This document shows positions 4,558 to 20,629 of a stretch of 31,426 nt of DNA, piece after piece. A program made the position numbers and the translations under genes. Source of the stretch: a virus. The stretch spans positions 1 to 31,426 of IMG/VR virus record IMGVR_UViG_3300023227_000017; one strand, written 5' to 3'. The notes under the pieces are model-generated. The model did not search any database. It was given only the letters and a program-made list of their open reading frames with translations, and was not told where the DNA came from. Numbering within the stretch: the stretch's first letter is position 1; each line of letters opens with the position of its first letter.

Positions 4558-5466
4558 ATGGCAATTTCAAGAGCCCAGCTCCTAAAGGAGCTATTACCAG
4601 GACTTAACGCGCTATTCGGTTTAGAGTATGCACGTTATGGCGAAGAGCATAAAGAGATTTACGAAACTGAATCTTCAGACCGTTCTTTCGAAGAAGAAAC
4701 AAAACTAGCTGGCTTCGCTGCAGCACCTCTGAAATCTGAGGGAGCAGCAATTGCGTATGATAACGCACAAGAAGCTTTTACAGCACGTTACAACCACGTG
4801 ACTATTGCTTTAGGATTCAGTTTAACTGAAGAAGCAGTTGAGGATAATCTATATGATTCATTGTCAGCTCGTTATACTAAAGCACTTGCACGATCAATGG
4901 CTAACACTAAGCAAGTTAGAGCGGCTAACGTTCTTAACAACGGCTTCAATGCCGGCTTTGCAGGTGGTGACGGTGTATCATTGTTTAACGCAAGCCATCC
5001 ATTAGTATCAGGTGGTGTTAACAGTAATACACAAGGTGTTGCTACAGACTTGAACGAAACAGCATTGGAAAATGCAGTTATTCAAATCGCAGCATGGACC
5101 GATGAGCGTGGCTTACTAATTGCGTCTAAACCACGTAAGTTAGTTATTCCACCAGCACTTCAGTTCGTTGCAACTCGTCTATTAGATACAGAGCTTCGTG
5201 TAGCTACTGCAGATAATGACATCAACGCATTAAGAACTAATGGTGCAATTCCAGAAGGTTATACAGTAAATCACTTCTTAACAGACGGTGACGCTTATTT
5301 CCTAACAACTGACGTTCCTAACGGTATGAAGCATTTTGAAAGAACACCGCTTACTACTTCTATGGACGGAGATTTTGATACTGGCAATGTACGTTACAAA
5401 GCCCGTGAAAGATATTCATTCGGTTGGTCTGATCCATTAGGTATGTGGGGTTCAGCAGGTGCATAA
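4558..5466 (+). CDS. Major capsid protein (Mu gpT-like HK97 fold)
   Basis: This 302-residue protein has the features of the gpT-like coat family. The N-terminal helix 'LLPGLNALFGLEYARYGEE' comes first, then a strand region ending in YNHVTIALGFSLTEEAVED, then 'GVSLFNASHPLVSGG' in the central domain. Next come the spine-helix region ALENAVIQIAAWTDERGLL with 'PRKLVIPPALQF', and finally 'RYKARERYSFGWSDPLGMWG' at the end. Hexamers and pentamers of this fold build the head shell. It is followed within 60 bases by a strong terminator, so it ends the head operon. Length is normal for this family and no cleavable leader is evident. Confidence 0.88.
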   Translation: MAISRAQLLKELLPGLNALFGLEYARYGEEHKEIYETESSDRSFEEETKLAGFAAAPLKSEGAAIAYDNAQEAFTARYNHVTIALGFSLTEEAVEDNLYDSLSARYTKALARSMANTKQVRAANVLNNGFNAGFAGGDGVSLFNASHPLVSGGVNSNTQGVATDLNETALENAVIQIAAWTDERGLLIASKPRKLVIPPALQFVATRLLDTELRVATADNDINALRTNGAIPEGYTVNHFLTDGDAYFLTTDVPNGMKHFERTPLTTSMDGDFDTGNVRYKARERYSFGWSDPLGMWGSAGA

Positions 5467-5509: not shown

Positions 5510-5517
5510 TCCTCCTG

Positions 5518-5550
5518 AAAAACCCGGCACCTCTCAGCTGGGTTTTTCTT
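5518..5550 (+). terminator. Rho-independent terminator of the head operon
   Basis: Bases 5518-5528 (aaaaacccggc) pair with 5537-5547 (gctgggttttt), with one G-U pair and an 8-base loop. The 3' arm ends in a T-run continued by ctt. Placement 51 bases after the capsid stop fits termination of the head transcript. Confidence 0.85.
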
Positions 5551-5597
5551 TATCTAAAACTCATGAATATGCTTAGGGCACAAACTAAATAGATAGA

Positions 5598-5603
5598 TAT
5601 AAT
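5598..5603 (+). promoter_or_regulatory. Candidate -10 box (TATAAT) upstream of the PqqA-like gene
   Basis: A perfect TATAAT lies 46 bases before the PqqA-like ATG and after the capsid terminator. No good -35 hexamer is present at 16-18 bases; ttaggg at 5573-5578 is a poor match with a 19-base gap. Being the first promoter-like element after a terminator supports it, but A+T-rich DNA produces such boxes by chance. Confidence 0.45.
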
Positions 5604-5610
5604 TCTCTTA

Positions 5611-5625
5611 TCAGCTTCATGCTGA
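5611..5625 (+). promoter_or_regulatory. Short leader hairpin before the PqqA-like gene
   Basis: tcagc (5611-5615) pairs with gctga (5621-5625) around a 5-base loop, 10 bases upstream of the AAGGAG ribosome site. It may stabilise the short mRNA or tune access to the ribosome site. The stem is only five pairs, so this is tentative. Confidence 0.35.
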
Positions 5626-5649
5626 AATCTAACTTAAGGAGATTCTATT

Positions 5650-5721
5650 ATGTGGACAACACCATCAGCAACAGAAATGAGATTTGGTTTCGAAGTAACC
5701 ATGTACGTAATGAACAAGTAA
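5650..5721 (+). CDS. pqqA: PqqA-like PQQ precursor peptide (23 aa)
   Basis: This 23-codon gene is too short for routine ORF calling. A strong AAGGAG site at 5636-5641 sits eight bases before the ATG. The peptide begins MWTTPS and ends RFGFEVTMYVMNK. It matches PqqA, the ribosomal substrate for pyrroloquinoline quinone, in length and in key positions: Trp2, Pro5, Arg11, Gly13, Glu15, Val16, Thr17, Tyr19 and Asn22 (compared from memory with Klebsiella PqqA). In PQQ synthesis the radical-SAM enzyme PqqE, with PqqD, joins Glu15 to Tyr19, and the linked pair becomes PQQ. Both residues are present at exactly these numbers. No pqqB, C, D or E gene is in the window, so the host would have to supply the enzymes. 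Flanking terminators suggest independent transcription. Confidence 0.85.
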   Translation: MWTTPSATEMRFGFEVTMYVMNK

Positions 5722-5733
5722 GTGATATAATTG

Positions 5734-5826
5734 TTTAACGGGGAGCATTTAACGCTTTCCATTAAAACTTATTATCTATCCGGTCCGGTGGCTTGGAAAC
5801 AGCCTGAGCCGTTTAAAAGAGATAAT
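5734..5826 (+). ncRNA. Candidate structured RNA downstream of the PqqA-like gene
   Basis: There are two foldable elements between the peptide stop and the terminator. First, 5734-5738 with 5762-5766 and 5740-5746 (ggggagc) with 5754-5760 (gctttcc) form a long hairpin with G-U pairs. Second, 5771-5777 (attatct) pairs with 5820-5826 (agataat), enclosing an inner stem: 5786-5789 with 5808-5811 and 5790-5793 (ggct) with 5801-5804 (agcc), with a 3-base bulge. All frames here are stop-rich. It matches no tRNA or riboswitch class I recognise. It could be a 3' UTR stabiliser or a regulatory RNA. Confidence 0.4.
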
Positions 5827-5846
5827 ATTTTAAAAGAACCAACACT

Positions 5847-5868
5847 AAGGGGCTTCGGTCCCTTTTTT
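5847..5868 (+). terminator. Rho-independent terminator with UUCG tetraloop
   Basis: aaggggc (5847-5853) pairs with gtccctt (5858-5864) around TTCG, with one G-U pair, followed by a T-run to 5868. This is a textbook stable terminator. It ends the PqqA-like transcript before the next structural genes. Confidence 0.88.
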
Positions 5869-5872
5869 GTTG

Positions 5873-5878: not shown

Positions 5879-5917
5879 AATGTAAAACCGTGTACCATTA
5901 ATTATCTGGGTAAAACC

Positions 5918-5963
5918 AGCTTATCATGACTGCCCCAGCAGACGCATACACGACAGATAAGCT
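5918..5963 (+). repeat. Inverted repeat before the structural operon
   Basis: agcttatc (5918-5925) is a perfect inverted repeat of gataagct (5956-5963). Inside, ctgc (5930-5933) can pair with gcag (5938-5941). It lies just ahead of the GGAGAA ribosome site of the next gene, so as RNA it could affect translation; as DNA it could be an operator. It also overlaps a tiny ORF. Confidence 0.5.
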
Positions 5964-5994
5964 TAACTTTGTATGGAGAAATTCAAATGTCTAG
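5926..5994 (+). CDS. Possible 22-residue leader ORF
   Basis: An ATG at 5926 opens a 22-codon frame (starting MTAPADAYTTDK, ending NFVWRNSNV). Its TAG overlaps the start of the next gene by eight bases, as a translationally coupled leader would. However, no Shine-Dalgarno sequence precedes it, and the same bases form the inverted repeat at 5918-5963. It may be chance; the protein-like composition is the only positive evidence. Confidence 0.25.
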   Translation: MTAPADAYTTDKLNFVWRNSNV

Positions 5995-6400
5995 AACCAC
6001 ATTTTCAGGACCAGTCGTGTCCCAAAACGGCTTTATCACAGACCACGCAACAGCCTCATCAATTAATGCAACTGCAGTAGCAACTGCGGCACAAGTAGCC
6101 ACAGGTTATATTGATTCAACATCCGCAGCAGCTACAAGTATTACATTTCCAACTGGAACTCTTTTAGGCGCTGAATTACAAGCAACTGCAGGAACAGTTT
6201 TTGAATTAGTAGTTGATAACACAGGCGGTGCATCGCTCGTAACAATGGTAGTTGGAGTTAACGCAATTATGTCAGACGCTGCTACTACTACTGCAGCCTC
6301 TTTCGGTGATTTAACTATTGCCTTCGGCGTTACAGGTATGGCTCGGTATACTTTATTATTTAGTAGCGCTACTGCTTATACAATAACCCGTACTGCTTAA
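5987..6400 (+). CDS. Beta-rich virion structural protein
   Basis: I place the start at the ATG at 5987 (GGAGAA six bases upstream), giving 137 residues; a TTG at 5969 in the same frame would include the ribosome site in the gene. The start 'SRTTFSGPVVSQNGFI' recurs in structural proteins of marine podoviruses. The rest is Ala/Thr-rich with a beta pattern (FELVVDNTGGASLVTMVVG, ARYTLLFSSATAYTITRTA). The next gene begins 12 bases downstream after an AGGAG. A surface or fibre-associated role is likely but unproven. Confidence 0.6.
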   Translation: MSRTTFSGPVVSQNGFITDHATASSINATAVATAAQVATGYIDSTSAAATSITFPTGTLLGAELQATAGTVFELVVDNTGGASLVTMVVGVNAIMSDAATTTAASFGDLTIAFGVTGMARYTLLFSSATAYTITRTA

Positions 6401-15679: not shown

Positions 15680-16671
15680 AATTAACGATCGTAGTAACAG
15701 ATAATGCGGCTTCTAAAAATGGAGTTGGGCATGGTGGCCTAGATTTTTCATCGTGCAATATACCAGTTACCGTTTGGGCATTACAATGGAATAATGACTC
15801 AGGGCATATTGAATATGAGGGCTTATCCCAGAATACTGTAATAACAGAGCTCCCAGCTTGGGCAACTGCCGTAGAAGAAGTATGGCAAACTGCGGAAGAT
15901 GCAGCTACAGCTGCTATTGAAGAAGAAGAAGTGCTAATAGAATCACAACAAGATGACCCTGCACTAGATGCTATTATGGCTCAGTACCCAACAGTAACAA
16001 AAGCCTACGCAGAAGTAGTAATTGCTAAAGTATCTTCTTTAGAGTTTGAGCTTAAAGTAATTAGTGGGTCTTATCTGTATGATAGAGATGTTCAAAATAC
16101 TATGCCATTTAAACCCATAGGAATAGCTTGTATTAATTTGGCAGGTTCTGGAGTAGCTGTTCTTAATAAAATGTCACTGTTTGCTAACGAAGCAGCTAAA
16201 TATGGTATCCCTATATTTTCATACCTTAATGATAAAAGCACACAAGATGCTTTAGCACAATACAGTGTAGACCACATGGAGCAAACTCAATATACTTATG
16301 ATGGAAATCCATTTATGTATACTGTGTGGACCCTTGAAAAGGAAAAACAAAAAGCAGATAAAGACATTAACTTAGATAGAATAGCTACTTTAGATGCAGG
16401 CTTTACATGGAATGGTAATACCTTTGATGCTGACAACTTAAGCAGGACTAACCTAGCAGGATATGTAGCTATGGTTGATGCAAGCATAAGTTTACCTGCT
16501 GATTTTACATGGCGTGATGTAGATAATAATGATATAGTTTTAACTAACGAAACAATTAAAGCCTTTGCAACAGCTATGAATACTTTTGTTAATGATACTT
16601 ATGTAGCCTCATGGGCGAGGAAAGTTAATGTCCGTGCAGCTTCAACTATTGATGGGATACGTGCAATTTAA
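15676..16671 (+). CDS. DUF4376-containing tail fibre-associated protein
   Basis: This protein has 331 residues. The N-terminal part (1-75, LTIVVTDNAASKNGVGHGGL; VTVWALQWNNDSGHIEYEG) resembles the small beta domain of tail-fibre assembly proteins. The C-terminal ~105 residues match DUF4376: INLDRIATLDAGFTWNGNTF, DADNLSRTNLAGYVAMVDAS, then FTWRDVDNNDIVLTNETIKA and AFATAMNTFVNDTY. DUF4376 is common in tail fibre and fibre-chaperone proteins. The gene follows the fibre and likely helps it fold or forms part of it. Its last 44 bases overlap the first desaturase gene. Confidence 0.7.
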   Translation: MKLTIVVTDNAASKNGVGHGGLDFSSCNIPVTVWALQWNNDSGHIEYEGLSQNTVITELPAWATAVEEVWQTAEDAATAAIEEEEVLIESQQDDPALDAIMAQYPTVTKAYAEVVIAKVSSLEFELKVISGSYLYDRDVQNTMPFKPIGIACINLAGSGVAVLNKMSLFANEAAKYGIPIFSYLNDKSTQDALAQYSVDHMEQTQYTYDGNPFMYTVWTLEKEKQKADKDINLDRIATLDAGFTWNGNTFDADNLSRTNLAGYVAMVDASISLPADFTWRDVDNNDIVLTNETIKAFATAMNTFVNDTYVASWARKVNVRAASTIDGIRAI

Positions 16672-17497
16672 TCTAAGTAATAATGTTAAAATAAAAGTAG
16701 TACAGGCTTTCGCATACCTAGGTGCAGCAGCCACGCTTATTTTTTGGTGGAATACGACTTTATTTATACTAGCAATGATATGGGGATGGCTTCTTACAGG
16801 TTTTGGCTCTAGTATGTCTCTCCATAAAATGTCTGCCCACCAGTCTTTCAAACCAAAGAATAGACTAATAAAAATAATACTTCTATTTATGGGTACCATT
16901 GTAAGTATGGGTAGTACTATTTATTGGTGTGATACACATAGATTACATCATGGAACATCAGATACAGATAAAGACCCTCATCCTCCTAATGGAACTTTAT
17001 GGAATAAAATAAAGATATGGTTTTATTACTTTGCTCCTTATCAGATTAATCCTATGAGAGTAAAGGATTTGATTGCAGACAAAGACCATATGTTTTTTCA
17101 TAGGCATTACTATAAAATAGTGTTAGGATGGATTGGACTACTAGCTTTAATAGATATTAAGATAGCAGCTTACTTTTATTGCGTTAGTATGTTGTATGTA
17201 TTTTTTGGTATTAGTTATATAACTGTAATAGCTCATGTACCTAAATTAGCAGTAAAAGGATATAGACTATTTAACTCCTCTGATTATACATATAACAGCC
17301 AACTTTTTGCATGGCTTTTATGGGGTGAAGGGTATCATAATACTCATCATAGTAATCCTAGATTATATAACTTAGCATTACTTCCTAATGAGTTTGATTA
17401 CTCTGCTAAAGTAATAGAATTTATAGGGGTACCTTATAAACAAAAGCCAAAAGCTTTTAACAAAATAGTAAAGGTTGAACATGGACATTACAGATAG
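16628..17497 (+). CDS. Membrane fatty acyl desaturase (delta-9 type), first copy
   Basis: This protein has 289 residues. It carries the three histidine boxes of the membrane-bound di-iron desaturases: HKMSAH (66-71), HRLHH (104-108, followed by SDTDKDPH) and HNTHH (237-241, in WGEGYHNTHHSNP). Hydrophobic helices lie at ~30-60, 82-100 and 165-203. The family introduces double bonds into acyl chains on CoA, lipid or ACP; the SCD/DesC-like boxes suggest delta-9 type. The start at 16628 has GAGGAAAG upstream, though it overlaps the DUF4376 gene by 44 bases; ATG 16652 is an alternative. The 17-base overlap with the ACP gene suggests linked function. Confidence 0.88.
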   Translation: MSVQLQLLMGYVQFNLSNNVKIKVVQAFAYLGAAATLIFWWNTTLFILAMIWGWLLTGFGSSMSLHKMSAHQSFKPKNRLIKIILLFMGTIVSMGSTIYWCDTHRLHHGTSDTDKDPHPPNGTLWNKIKIWFYYFAPYQINPMRVKDLIADKDHMFFHRHYYKIVLGWIGLLALIDIKIAAYFYCVSMLYVFFGISYITVIAHVPKLAVKGYRLFNSSDYTYNSQLFAWLLWGEGYHNTHHSNPRLYNLALLPNEFDYSAKVIEFIGVPYKQKPKAFNKIVKVEHGHYR

Positions 17498-17711
17498 AGT
17501 ATTAAAAATTATATCTGATGAAACAAAAACACCAATCAAAGATATAGATTTAGAAGCCGACATAAGAGATATGGGAATAGACTCTCTAGCTACAGTAGAA
17601 ATAATCATAGCAATAGAAGAAAAATTAGGAATTGAAATTCCTGAAGATAAGGCAGATGACCTGATAGTTATAAAGGATATAATAGCTTTATGCAAAACAT
17701 TGCATACATAA
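17481..17711 (+). CDS. Acyl carrier protein
   Basis: This 76-residue acidic protein has the ACP layout: helix 1 (ITDRVLKIISDETK), then the modification site in 'DMGIDSLATVEIIIAIEEKL' with Ser35 as the 4'-phosphopantetheine attachment residue, then GIEIPED and a last helix. Length is standard. I use the ATG at 17481 (AAGG six bases upstream) rather than the TTG at 17475. It overlaps both flanking desaturase genes, so all three are surely co-expressed. It needs a host phosphopantetheinyl transferase, as none is in the window. It likely carries the acyl chain on which the neighbours act. Confidence 0.9.
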   Translation: MDITDRVLKIISDETKTPIKDIDLEADIRDMGIDSLATVEIIIAIEEKLGIEIPEDKADDLIVIKDIIALCKTLHT

Positions 17712-18499
17712 ACCTTAGAATTTTATGGGTGTTTGTTCACTTAGGAGCTATTGCAGCAATAGCCTTAGCTATATTTTATGGTTATGGGTGGTGGCTTTTA
17801 TTATCATTTTTAATTTCTAGAGTATGGGTAATAGGTGGTATGAGTATGAGCCTACACAGATACTTTTCTCATCACCAATTTAAAACCACGACTTTTAAAC
17901 ATAAAGTATTATGTTTTCTAGCTACAATGGCAGCCCAGGGAAGTCCTATCGGTTGGGCAAATGTTCATAGACATCATCACAAGTACTCTGACCAAGAACT
18001 TGATATACACTCTCCTAAGGGAGGAGCTTGGCATGGAGCTTGGTGGATGCTTGAAAATCCTAAAATGTGGAGTCAAAAATTAGGAATGAAACTTACTACT
18101 ATTGATTTATTTAAAGATAAAGCAGTAGCCTTTGTTGACAAATGGTATTATGTTTTTTGGTTTAGTTTAATAGCAATTAGTTTTCTTATTGACTGGAAGA
18201 TTGCGTTATTTTTAGTATTAGCTCCTCCAGGTATAGGCTATATGTTGGATATGTATTTTGTTAATTACTTAACTCATACTGCATTGCTACCTAAAGGGTA
18301 TAGAAACTTTGATTCTACCGATACTACTTGGAACTATACTTGGGTTATATGGTTAGGAATACCAGATGGTTTACACCATAACCATCATTCAGAACCTTGG
18401 AAAATAGATGCGGCAATTAAAAAGGGTGAGTTTGATATAACAGCTTGGATAATTAATAAGTGGTTTGCTATAGAAGAAACAGAGATTAAAGTAAAGTGA
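17690..18499 (+). CDS. Membrane fatty acyl desaturase, second copy
   Basis: This protein has 269 residues. Histidine boxes: HRYFSH (56-61), HRHHH (93-97, followed by KYSDQELDIHSPKGG) and HHNHH (229-233). This is the delta-9 desaturase-type pattern with a di-iron centre. Hydrophobic helices lie at ~10-50, 72-90 and 152-190. It differs clearly from the first copy in box 2 and box 3, so it is not a recent duplicate. It overlaps the ACP gene by 22 bases. It may act on the product of the first desaturase, giving a diene or a triple bond (acetylenase-like), but this cannot be read from the boxes. Confidence 0.88.
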   Translation: MQNIAYINLRILWVFVHLGAIAAIALAIFYGYGWWLLLSFLISRVWVIGGMSMSLHRYFSHHQFKTTTFKHKVLCFLATMAAQGSPIGWANVHRHHHKYSDQELDIHSPKGGAWHGAWWMLENPKMWSQKLGMKLTTIDLFKDKAVAFVDKWYYVFWFSLIAISFLIDWKIALFLVLAPPGIGYMLDMYFVNYLTHTALLPKGYRNFDSTDTTWNYTWVIWLGIPDGLHHNHHSEPWKIDAAIKKGEFDITAWIINKWFAIEETEIKVK

Positions 18500-18512: not shown

Positions 18513-19034
18513 ATGGACTTACATAACTTAATGTTAGAACCAAATTTAGTAGAGACTCTTGATTTACAGTATGTAACAGCAGATAAGTATAGTCTTAAAG
18601 ACATTAATAAAGAAAGTTTAATAGAAGAAGTACTAGAAGATAAGAATATAAGGCTTACTAATGATGTAAATAGTTCTATTTATGAAGATACTTTATGGGA
18701 GCCAAAGCAAGAAGGGCTAAAAGTTTTAAACCAAATAAATTCTATTGTTAACCCATTAGGATTAAAGGTAACTGAAAAATGGGCTTTGATACATAGACCT
18801 TTTGAAAGCACTAACTCTCATAGGCACCCTGCGACAGAGTTTGGTTTTGTATACTACGTGAAGGCTCTACCTGGAGCAGGTAACTTGGTGTTTGAATTTG
18901 ATAATATGAATACTGTTATTCCCCCAGTAGAAAATACCCTGCTTATATTTCCAGGATGGTGTAAACACAAAGTAACAAGAAATTTAAGCAATGATACAAG
19001 GATAAGTCTTTCAGGAAATATTAATTATATATGA
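18513..19034 (+). CDS. Putative 2OG-Fe(II) oxygenase (2OG-FeII_Oxy_5-like)
   Basis: This protein has 173 residues. The C-terminal half fits the double-stranded beta-helix type used by a family of phage and bacterial 2-oxoglutarate oxygenases: NSHRHPATEFGFVYYVKALP, then GAGNLVFEF, ENTLLIFPGWCKHKV and TRISLSGNINY. Likely iron ligands are His103/His105 and His152, with Arg163 for 2-oxoglutarate. The N-terminal 80 residues are a helical cap. An AAGGG site lies only two bases before the ATG; ATG 18531 is an alternative. It overlaps the next gene at ATGA. Substrate unknown; hydroxylation of a lipid-linked or protein substrate is possible. Confidence 0.65.
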   Translation: MDLHNLMLEPNLVETLDLQYVTADKYSLKDINKESLIEEVLEDKNIRLTNDVNSSIYEDTLWEPKQEGLKVLNQINSIVNPLGLKVTEKWALIHRPFESTNSHRHPATEFGFVYYVKALPGAGNLVFEFDNMNTVIPPVENTLLIFPGWCKHKVTRNLSNDTRISLSGNINYI

Positions 19035-19558
19035 TATACGAATTTCCTAACTATATAGACTTAGAGTTGATTCAAGAAATAAAGAATCAAAGTAGAAAGC
19101 ATATTCAATTAGATAAGGCGGGTAGTTATAACAGGGAAGGAAATACTGTTGATATTACCAATACGCCTGAGTTAAAAGAGCTAGATAATAAAATACATAG
19201 CCTGATGGAAAGCATTCAAACGGAGTTGGTGCAACTAAGATTTAAACCTCAGTTTGATTCGGCAGATAGTGGGTATGAGTACCATAGATATAATGTAGGT
19301 GAGCAGTGCTTACATCACGCTGATGGCGAAGTAATGAATGGCTTGCTTAGGTATGCTTCGGTAATTATACATCTAAGCACTAACGATGGAGAGACTATCT
19401 TTCCACAACAAAACAGAAAGATTAAAACAGAAGAGGGTAAGGTTGTGATATTTCCACCTTATGGAGGCTTTGGACATTATGTGTCGCCATCAACCACACC
19501 AAGAGAGGTATTGGTTAGTTGGTTTGTTTATGTGGGGGTATCAATAAATAATGGATAA
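19031..19558 (+). CDS. Prolyl-4-hydroxylase-like 2OG-Fe(II) oxygenase
   Basis: This 175-residue protein has the complete motif: His96-x-Asp98 in QCLHHADGE, distal His149 in GGFGHYVSP and Arg158 in TPREVLVSWF, plus the strand GYEYHRYNVGE and the core GETIFPQQNRKIKTEEGKV. This is the P4H-type fold, which uses O2, Fe(II) and 2-oxoglutarate to hydroxylate proline or other C-H bonds. It overlaps the genes on both sides (ATGA upstream, eight bases downstream). Compared with bacterial P4H proteins it is short, with little N-terminal domain. Substrate unknown. Confidence 0.8.
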   Translation: MIYEFPNYIDLELIQEIKNQSRKHIQLDKAGSYNREGNTVDITNTPELKELDNKIHSLMESIQTELVQLRFKPQFDSADSGYEYHRYNVGEQCLHHADGEVMNGLLRYASVIIHLSTNDGETIFPQQNRKIKTEEGKVVIFPPYGGFGHYVSPSTTPREVLVSWFVYVGVSINNG

Positions 19559-20093
19559 AAAAATAGACAGCTTAGGAAGAGAAATAATAATATATGATGA
19601 TTTATTTCCTAAAGAATTTCATGAATACCTTTATGGTTATGTTAGGAATAAAAAAAATTATGCTCTTGGATTTGAAGATACTGCGGCAGTAGAAAGGCTA
19701 ACACATAAATATTATACGGCTGACTTTGGGGTAGAAGACTTAGAAGAGTCTAAATTGTTTGACCAACTTTATAAGACACCTATGGGCGAATTTATTAAAG
19801 ATAGGCAACTTACTAGAGCTACTATTAACACATCAGTTCCTAGTCAAACTAATTTTCCTCATACACATTTAAATAATTGGTCATTTATCTATTACCTAAA
19901 CTTGGACTGGAAGCCTGAGTGGGCAGGAGAAACGCTGTTCTACAATGATAAATGTGATGAAATAGAGTTTGCTTCTGTATACAAGCCTAACAGGGGGATA
20001 CTATTTGATGGGGCAATACCCCACACGTTAAGAACGCAGAGTATTACTGCTCCACACTATAGGTTCAGCCTAGCAATGTTTTTTGAAAAATAA
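19551..20093 (+). CDS. 2OG-Fe(II) oxygenase-like protein with HTH in place of HxD
   Basis: This protein has 180 residues. The fold signature is clear in NNWSFIYYLNLDWKPEWAGE, TLFYNDKCDEIEFASVYKPN, RGILFDGAIPHTLR and HYRFSLAMFFEK. The proximal ligands read His104-Thr-His106 instead of His-x-Asp; distal His158 and Arg171 are present. A replaced carboxylate can open an iron site, as in 2OG halogenases, or the alignment may shift. The start overlaps its neighbour by eight bases and the stop gives TAATG. Activity is likely but untested. Confidence 0.7.
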   Translation: MDKKIDSLGREIIIYDDLFPKEFHEYLYGYVRNKKNYALGFEDTAAVERLTHKYYTADFGVEDLEESKLFDQLYKTPMGEFIKDRQLTRATINTSVPSQTNFPHTHLNNWSFIYYLNLDWKPEWAGETLFYNDKCDEIEFASVYKPNRGILFDGAIPHTLRTQSITAPHYRFSLAMFFEK

Positions 20094-20629
20094 TGAATAA
20101 AAAGAAAATAATAGTCCTTGATGATGTTATAAGTATGGATTCAGTGCGTGCCTTCAGTGAAAATCATTTTAACGATATGCCATCCGAACAATCAAGATGG
20201 GTAGACAAAGGTAAACAACCCCAGTACATAACAGACCTTATTAAGGTAGCAGAGACCCATTTTGATTTGTCTACAGCTGTAGGGTATGAGTGGTGGACTC
20301 AAAATAATACTTATTCAAATAAAGCATGGCATTATGATGTAGATGAATCAAATAAAGAGAAATTAAAAAGCCCTTTATGCAGCATAATATATTATCCGTT
20401 TGTTGCCCATTTAAACGGGGGGTATTTATCTACGGAGGATGTGAAGATAAAGCCAAAGTCTAATAGAATGATTATAATAGCTCCTGAAATAATGCACAGA
20501 ATTGAAACTTATAATATAGAAGAAGCAACAAGGTGGTCATTTTTAATCAACCCTTGGACATATAAACCAGAAGCAGCAACGCCTTCATGGCATATAAAAG
20601 AAGAAAATCCAGAAAATATGGTAAAATAA
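20093..20629 (+). CDS. 2OG-Fe(II) oxygenase-like protein
   Basis: This 178-residue protein has motif His80-Tyr-Asp82 in KAWHYDVDE, distal His135 in APEIMHRIETY and Arg147 in EATRWSFLINPW. The strand region GYEWWTQNNTYSN and the core SIIYYPFVAHLNGGYLSTED match the double-stranded beta-helix. It is the last gene of the metabolic cassette; 24 bases later the lysis genes begin. It is preceded by a TAATG overlap with the previous oxygenase. Substrate unknown. Confidence 0.75.
   Translation: MNKKKIIVLDDVISMDSVRAFSENHFNDMPSEQSRWVDKGKQPQYITDLIKVAETHFDLSTAVGYEWWTQNNTYSNKAWHYDVDESNKEKLKSPLCSIIYYPFVAHLNGGYLSTEDVKIKPKSNRMIIIAPEIMHRIETYNIEEATRWSFLINPWTYKPEAATPSWHIKEENPENMVK

Follow-up and report, generated by a model that had tools for sequence, protein, structure and literature searches.

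The stretch of DNA analyzed here, hereafter the window, is a linear virus record of 31 kb (31,426 nucleotides; IMG/VR record IMGVR_UViG_3300023227_000017). It is a fragment of a larger genome, so the absence of a gene from the window is not its absence from the phage. Its genes for a portal, major capsid, ejection, and endolysin protein show that it comes from a tailed phage. The capsid protein has 66% identity to that of pelagiphage HTVC023P and at most 70% to those of Planktothrix and Synechococcus phage records. A megablast search of the window against named phages found no near DNA relative. Behind the capsid gene lies an open reading frame (ORF) of 23 residues, with its own candidate signals and a terminator on either side (Table 1).

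Table 1. Features of the pqqA locus and their positions in the window.
Feature	Position	Strand	Basis
Major capsid protein gene, upstream neighbour anchoring the pqqA slot	4558..5466	+	Capsid similarity, relatives
Intrinsic terminator of the major capsid gene, left cassette border	5517..5556 (stem 5517-5548 plus tail)	+	12-bp stem, T-rich tail
TATAAT, candidate -10 element, 52 nt upstream of the pqqA ATG	5598..5603	+	Putative; no clear -35
Small 5'-leader hairpin, TCAGC TTCAT GCTGA	5611..5625	+	Also in relatives L132 and L133; weak folding, z -1.8
Ribosome-binding region TTAAGGAGATTCTATT, directly before the pqqA ATG	5634..5649	+	Sequence
pqqA, 23-aa PQQ precursor peptide MWTTPSATEMRFGFEVTMYVMNK	5650..5721	+	Sequence, PqqA profile matches, relatives
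Intrinsic terminator after pqqA, right cassette border	5847..5872 (5847-5864 plus tail)	+	AAGGGGC TTCG GTCCCTT TTTTG

The first-pass annotation of this DNA had pointed to the resemblance of the ORF to PqqA, and profile searches bear this out. The Pfam profile PF08042 gives 41.3 bits (E=1.4e-10; cut-off 21.1 bits) with all of its 19 positions covered, and the NCBIfam equivalog TIGR02107 gives 38.5 bits (cut-off 20 bits). The E-x-x-x-Y pair of PqqA is present as E15 and Y19, the residues that are cross-linked in known PqqA. Compared with the Methylophilaceae PqqA, which belongs to the same two families, the phage peptide has the same length and all conserved residues, and is identical to some host copies; it differs in being phage-borne, with neither PqqD nor PqqE found in the window. 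PHROGs yielded no family for the 23-aa peptide, and an Rfam search around pqqA gave no match above threshold. Judged by its sequence, the ORF is a true PqqA. A chance ORF is excluded, because nine database phages and some 120 viral contigs encode an intact peptide of this kind.

In capsid relatives, pqqA occupies the same place, mostly 138-190 nt past the capsid stop codon. Those that have the gene keep its ORF intact, as the first-pass annotation had anticipated, and several of them also keep the TATAAT candidate. The slot behind the capsid gene is empty in one close relative (L139) and holds another gene in a second (L135), so pqqA is not essential. In fifty capsid relatives that lack pqqA, the sequence extends for 1 kb or more past the capsid gene, and the absence of pqqA from the slot is therefore real. 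On a capsid tree, the pqqA label changes at least five times on well-supported branches, a rough number in view of long branches and patchy sampling, so that the gene must have been gained or lost repeatedly. With presence and absence among close relatives at a single site, pqqA in this capsid lineage has the structure of a moron cassette lying between two terminators. Between the pqqA stop codon and the right terminator (5722-5846), the window also has around 105 extra bases with a predicted long stem. These bases are shared with L129 and L130, and are absent from L133, L134, L137, and L138.

To assess the constraint on the peptide, we analyzed its variation among viral copies. With residues 14-23, and hence both reacting residues, left free in the scan pattern, Glu15 and Tyr19 are kept in 119 of the 119 listed viral copies, all of them full length. 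This is as the first-pass annotation had expected. The pN/pS ratio is 0.079 in codons 14-23, left free by this pattern, and 0.284 in codons 3-12 and 20-23, left free by another (112-129 distinct DNA variants). Strong purifying selection acts on the viral PqqA peptide. The DNA varies freely and the peptide does not; the product is therefore the peptide, and its reacting residues matter.

For the host, we searched 84,980 species genomes with a DNA pattern for EMRFGFEVTMY. The matches listed are mostly of Methylophilaceae type (Methylotenera, Methylophilus, Methylopumilus, OM43), and among them at least three Methylophilales genomes encode the exact window peptide. With one of these genomes, the pqqA DNA has 68 of its 72 bases in common. 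From PqqA itself, we infer that the host is a Methylophilaceae methylotroph of the freshwater LD28 or marine OM43 type. In these methylotrophs, methanol dehydrogenase requires PQQ. The core genes of the family include XoxF and those for making PQQ (PMC4109929). Of the 150 genomes of the host family that we searched, 149 have PqqA (median of 4 copies) and 140 have PqqE over the cut-off, in agreement with the expectation of a host with pqq enzymes; most of the genomes without PqqE are probably incomplete. Methylophilaceae have been described as carrying 3-12 pqqA copies but, as a rule, a single set of the remaining pqq genes (PMC4109929). Hence, the hosts amplify only the component that is consumed, and it is this component that the phages carry too.

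Profile searches of the window for PqqD, PqqE, and PQQ alcohol dehydrogenase found none. This agrees, for the two pqq genes searched, with the earlier remark that the window has no other pqq gene. The same pattern holds in 26 larger PqqA-bearing phage records, where PqqD was found in none, PqqE over the cut-off in none, and a PQQ methanol/alcohol dehydrogenase in one. That record (L049, 72,356 bases) encodes PqqA and a full-length dehydrogenase (608 bits), like a published virus from Lake Baikal. The locus thus has the features of an auxiliary metabolic gene: a host-derived gene in a genuine phage (from its capsid neighbour, the slot in relatives, and the isolated phages described below), selection on the protein (pN/pS of 0.08 and 0.28), and, for the presumed host family, the rest of the pathway in the host, as indicated by PqqE in 140/150 genomes.

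We then searched 50,697 phage records for PqqA by tblastn. It was found in nine Methylophilales phages: P19250A, Venkman, MEP301, MEP401, MEP402, and four Melnitz isolates. These include all complete isolates named in the publications that we consulted. They span unrelated groups (Kyanoviridae, Zobellviridae, and others). Their PqqA has 73-96% identity to the window peptide, while the phages belong to other lineages and carry pqqA at other genome positions, next to recombination genes in Venkman and MEP301 and to a tRNA in Melnitz. PqqA is annotated in none of the nine records: the site bears no annotation at all in five, and a "hypothetical protein" label in the four Melnitz records, on the opposite strand in the one that we opened. 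In other words, gene callers overlook peptide genes this small. Four publications on these isolates, that on P19250A not among them, do not mention a phage PqqA, and their single mention of PQQ is as a medium component. The remaining tblastn matches were one spring metagenome phage and two pieces labelled "Acinetobacter phage". We rejected the latter as phage, since pqqBCD follow in the one that we opened and indicate bacterial DNA. This record (L008, CAKLQF020000010.1, "Acinetobacter phage MD-2021a") also has other chromosomal genes and is probably mislabelled bacterial DNA.

In IMG/VR, one scan, in which Glu15 and Tyr19 were fixed by design, revealed at least 119 contigs with an intact PqqA. 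An AGGA-type site lies upstream of pqqA in 134 of 142 viral copies. Clustering of the gene contexts by shared neighbours gives between 9 and 23 groups as the threshold is varied. Another type of viral PqqA, MWTKPTYExIRLGFEVTMYFKNx (IRLGFEVTMYF), occurs in L011, L020, L025, and L030, and its sequence suggests phages of another PQQ-making host group.

The known route to PQQ begins with the cross-linking of a Glu and a Tyr in PqqA by PqqE, acting with PqqD; proteolysis then sets the linked residues free, and PqqB and PqqC carry out the remaining steps. Each molecule of PQQ costs one PqqA, which is not true of the enzymes. On the sequences at hand, the most likely reading is that the phage feeds the PQQ pathway of its host, and hence methanol dehydrogenase. 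The infecting phage would express PqqA as a small transcription unit of its own. The PqqD of the host would present the peptide to the host radical-SAM PqqE, which would join Glu15 to Tyr19, after which a host protease would free the cross-linked pair and host PqqB and PqqC would finish PQQ. This processing of the phage peptide is likely because it is identical to host PqqA. As PqqA is spent in this way and the enzymes are not, added PqqA alone could raise the output of PQQ. Methanol dehydrogenase, the energy entry point of the host, would then stay loaded with PQQ as host transcription fails, with a presumable gain in phage fitness. Cyanophages, with photosynthesis genes such as psbA, likewise prop up an energy-supplying step of the host during infection; psbA encodes a short-lived enzyme subunit, whereas the phage PqqA is a consumed peptide substrate. 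According to the passage of PMC9851590 that cites Wang et al. 2021, a cell extract turns added PqqA into PQQ with a yield of 70-80%, so substrate alone can drive the pathway. Against substrate supply, the hosts already have several pqqA copies, and PqqA therefore need not be limiting; moreover, PQQ is mostly a periplasmic need and is already present at infection.

One might instead expect such a gene to be a mere passenger, i.e., a host pqqA that entered by recombination and has persisted while mattering little to the phage. This fits its location past the capsid gene, in a variable slot that is bordered by two terminators and is empty or otherwise filled in relatives. Yet the strong purifying selection over 112-129 distinct DNA variants and the recurrence of the gene in unrelated methylophage lineages, at differing genome positions, make a neutral passenger unlikely in general, if less so for this particular phage. 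That the gene derives from host DNA by contamination or misassembly might be suspected from a pqqA sequence nearly that of host genes, but phage capsid genes flank it in independent contigs, and phage isolates with complete genomes have it too; these observations refute an artefact, whose probability we regard as negligible.

The first-pass annotation had also considered that the peptide could be a decoy or serve to make a modified peptide. A decoy would occupy PqqD and PqqE, lower host PQQ, and slow host metabolism, and with no other pqq gene found in the phage records tested, the peptide could indeed act only via host enzymes. These alternatives are nevertheless unsupported, as the phage sequence is the same as the host substrate: a peptide that is identical to a host PqqA does not differ from what the enzymes normally process, which makes a decoy very unlikely. 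A decoy would also be freer to lose the reacting pair, which is present in every copy of the unbiased scan, and the methanol dehydrogenase carried by one phage (L049), and by the Baikal virus alongside PqqA, points to boosting. We give slightly less credence still to another use of the peptide or of its cross-linked product by the phage, such as redox protection, a virion component, or a signal. The location just behind the capsid gene suggests late expression in this lineage, but the placement differs in others (Venkman, MEP301, Melnitz), and no feature has been added beyond those of PqqA. We thus consider it quite probable that the ORF is a functional pqqA from a Methylophilaceae host, kept as a one-gene auxiliary metabolic gene that supplies the synthesis of PQQ. 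The suggestion, made from the sequence, that the phage provides substrate to a PQQ-making host fits the evidence well; the hosts appear to be PQQ-dependent methylotrophs and not sugar or ethanol oxidisers. It is an even call whether methylotroph phages are generally characterized by an orphan pqqA, which unrelated lineages would have taken or kept because the supply of PqqA limits methanol oxidation in the infected cell.

In lakes and coastal seas, methylotrophs are important as methanol consumers. If phages routinely supply them with the PQQ precursor, viruses would be directing C1 oxidation by means of a metabolic gene that is among the smallest known from phages, and the PqqA signature would be a simple marker of methylotroph phages in metagenomes. 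Direct testing is possible, as cultured methylophage-host pairs exist. The first-pass annotation knew of no described phage role for this peptide, which proved wrong: Coutinho et al. 2020 (PMC7678222) reported PqqA and methanol dehydrogenase in the Lake Baikal virus population VP_266, and proposed a role in PQQ supply. Like the window, VP_266 has a phage-encoded PqqA, a predicted methylotroph host, and the same proposed role. In contrast, it has a methanol dehydrogenase, while the window has none and carries pqqA alone behind the capsid gene. A 2026 paper described virus-borne pqqA, pqqD, and pqqE in sediment (PMC13188868). Within the literature that we searched, the novel elements are the occurrence of the gene across unrelated methylophages, cultured ones among them, the test of selection, the rule that the gene is an orphan, and the cassette.

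The window has other features of potential interest. Downstream of the cassette, the leader of the gene ending at 6400 (5904-5985, + strand) is a conserved structured RNA. It has a hairpin GCTTATC/GATAAGC enclosing CTG/CAG, a pseudoknot GCATACA/TGTATG adjoining the ribosome site, and, by eye, a likely third pairing CTGGG/CCCAG. Across 13 capsid relatives, pairing is kept in every one of the 208 cells, and two-sided changes occur in 5 of the 16 pairs (mean of 2.0 in shuffles). Rfam has no family matching this leader, which may be a translational switch. Further downstream, four consecutive genes (18513-20629) resemble 2OG-Fe(II) oxygenases, with only two over the Pfam cut-off. Just before them, at 16628-18499, an acyl carrier protein gene is enclosed by two genes for fatty acid desaturases; the three lie in phage structural surroundings and form a possible lipid-modifying set.
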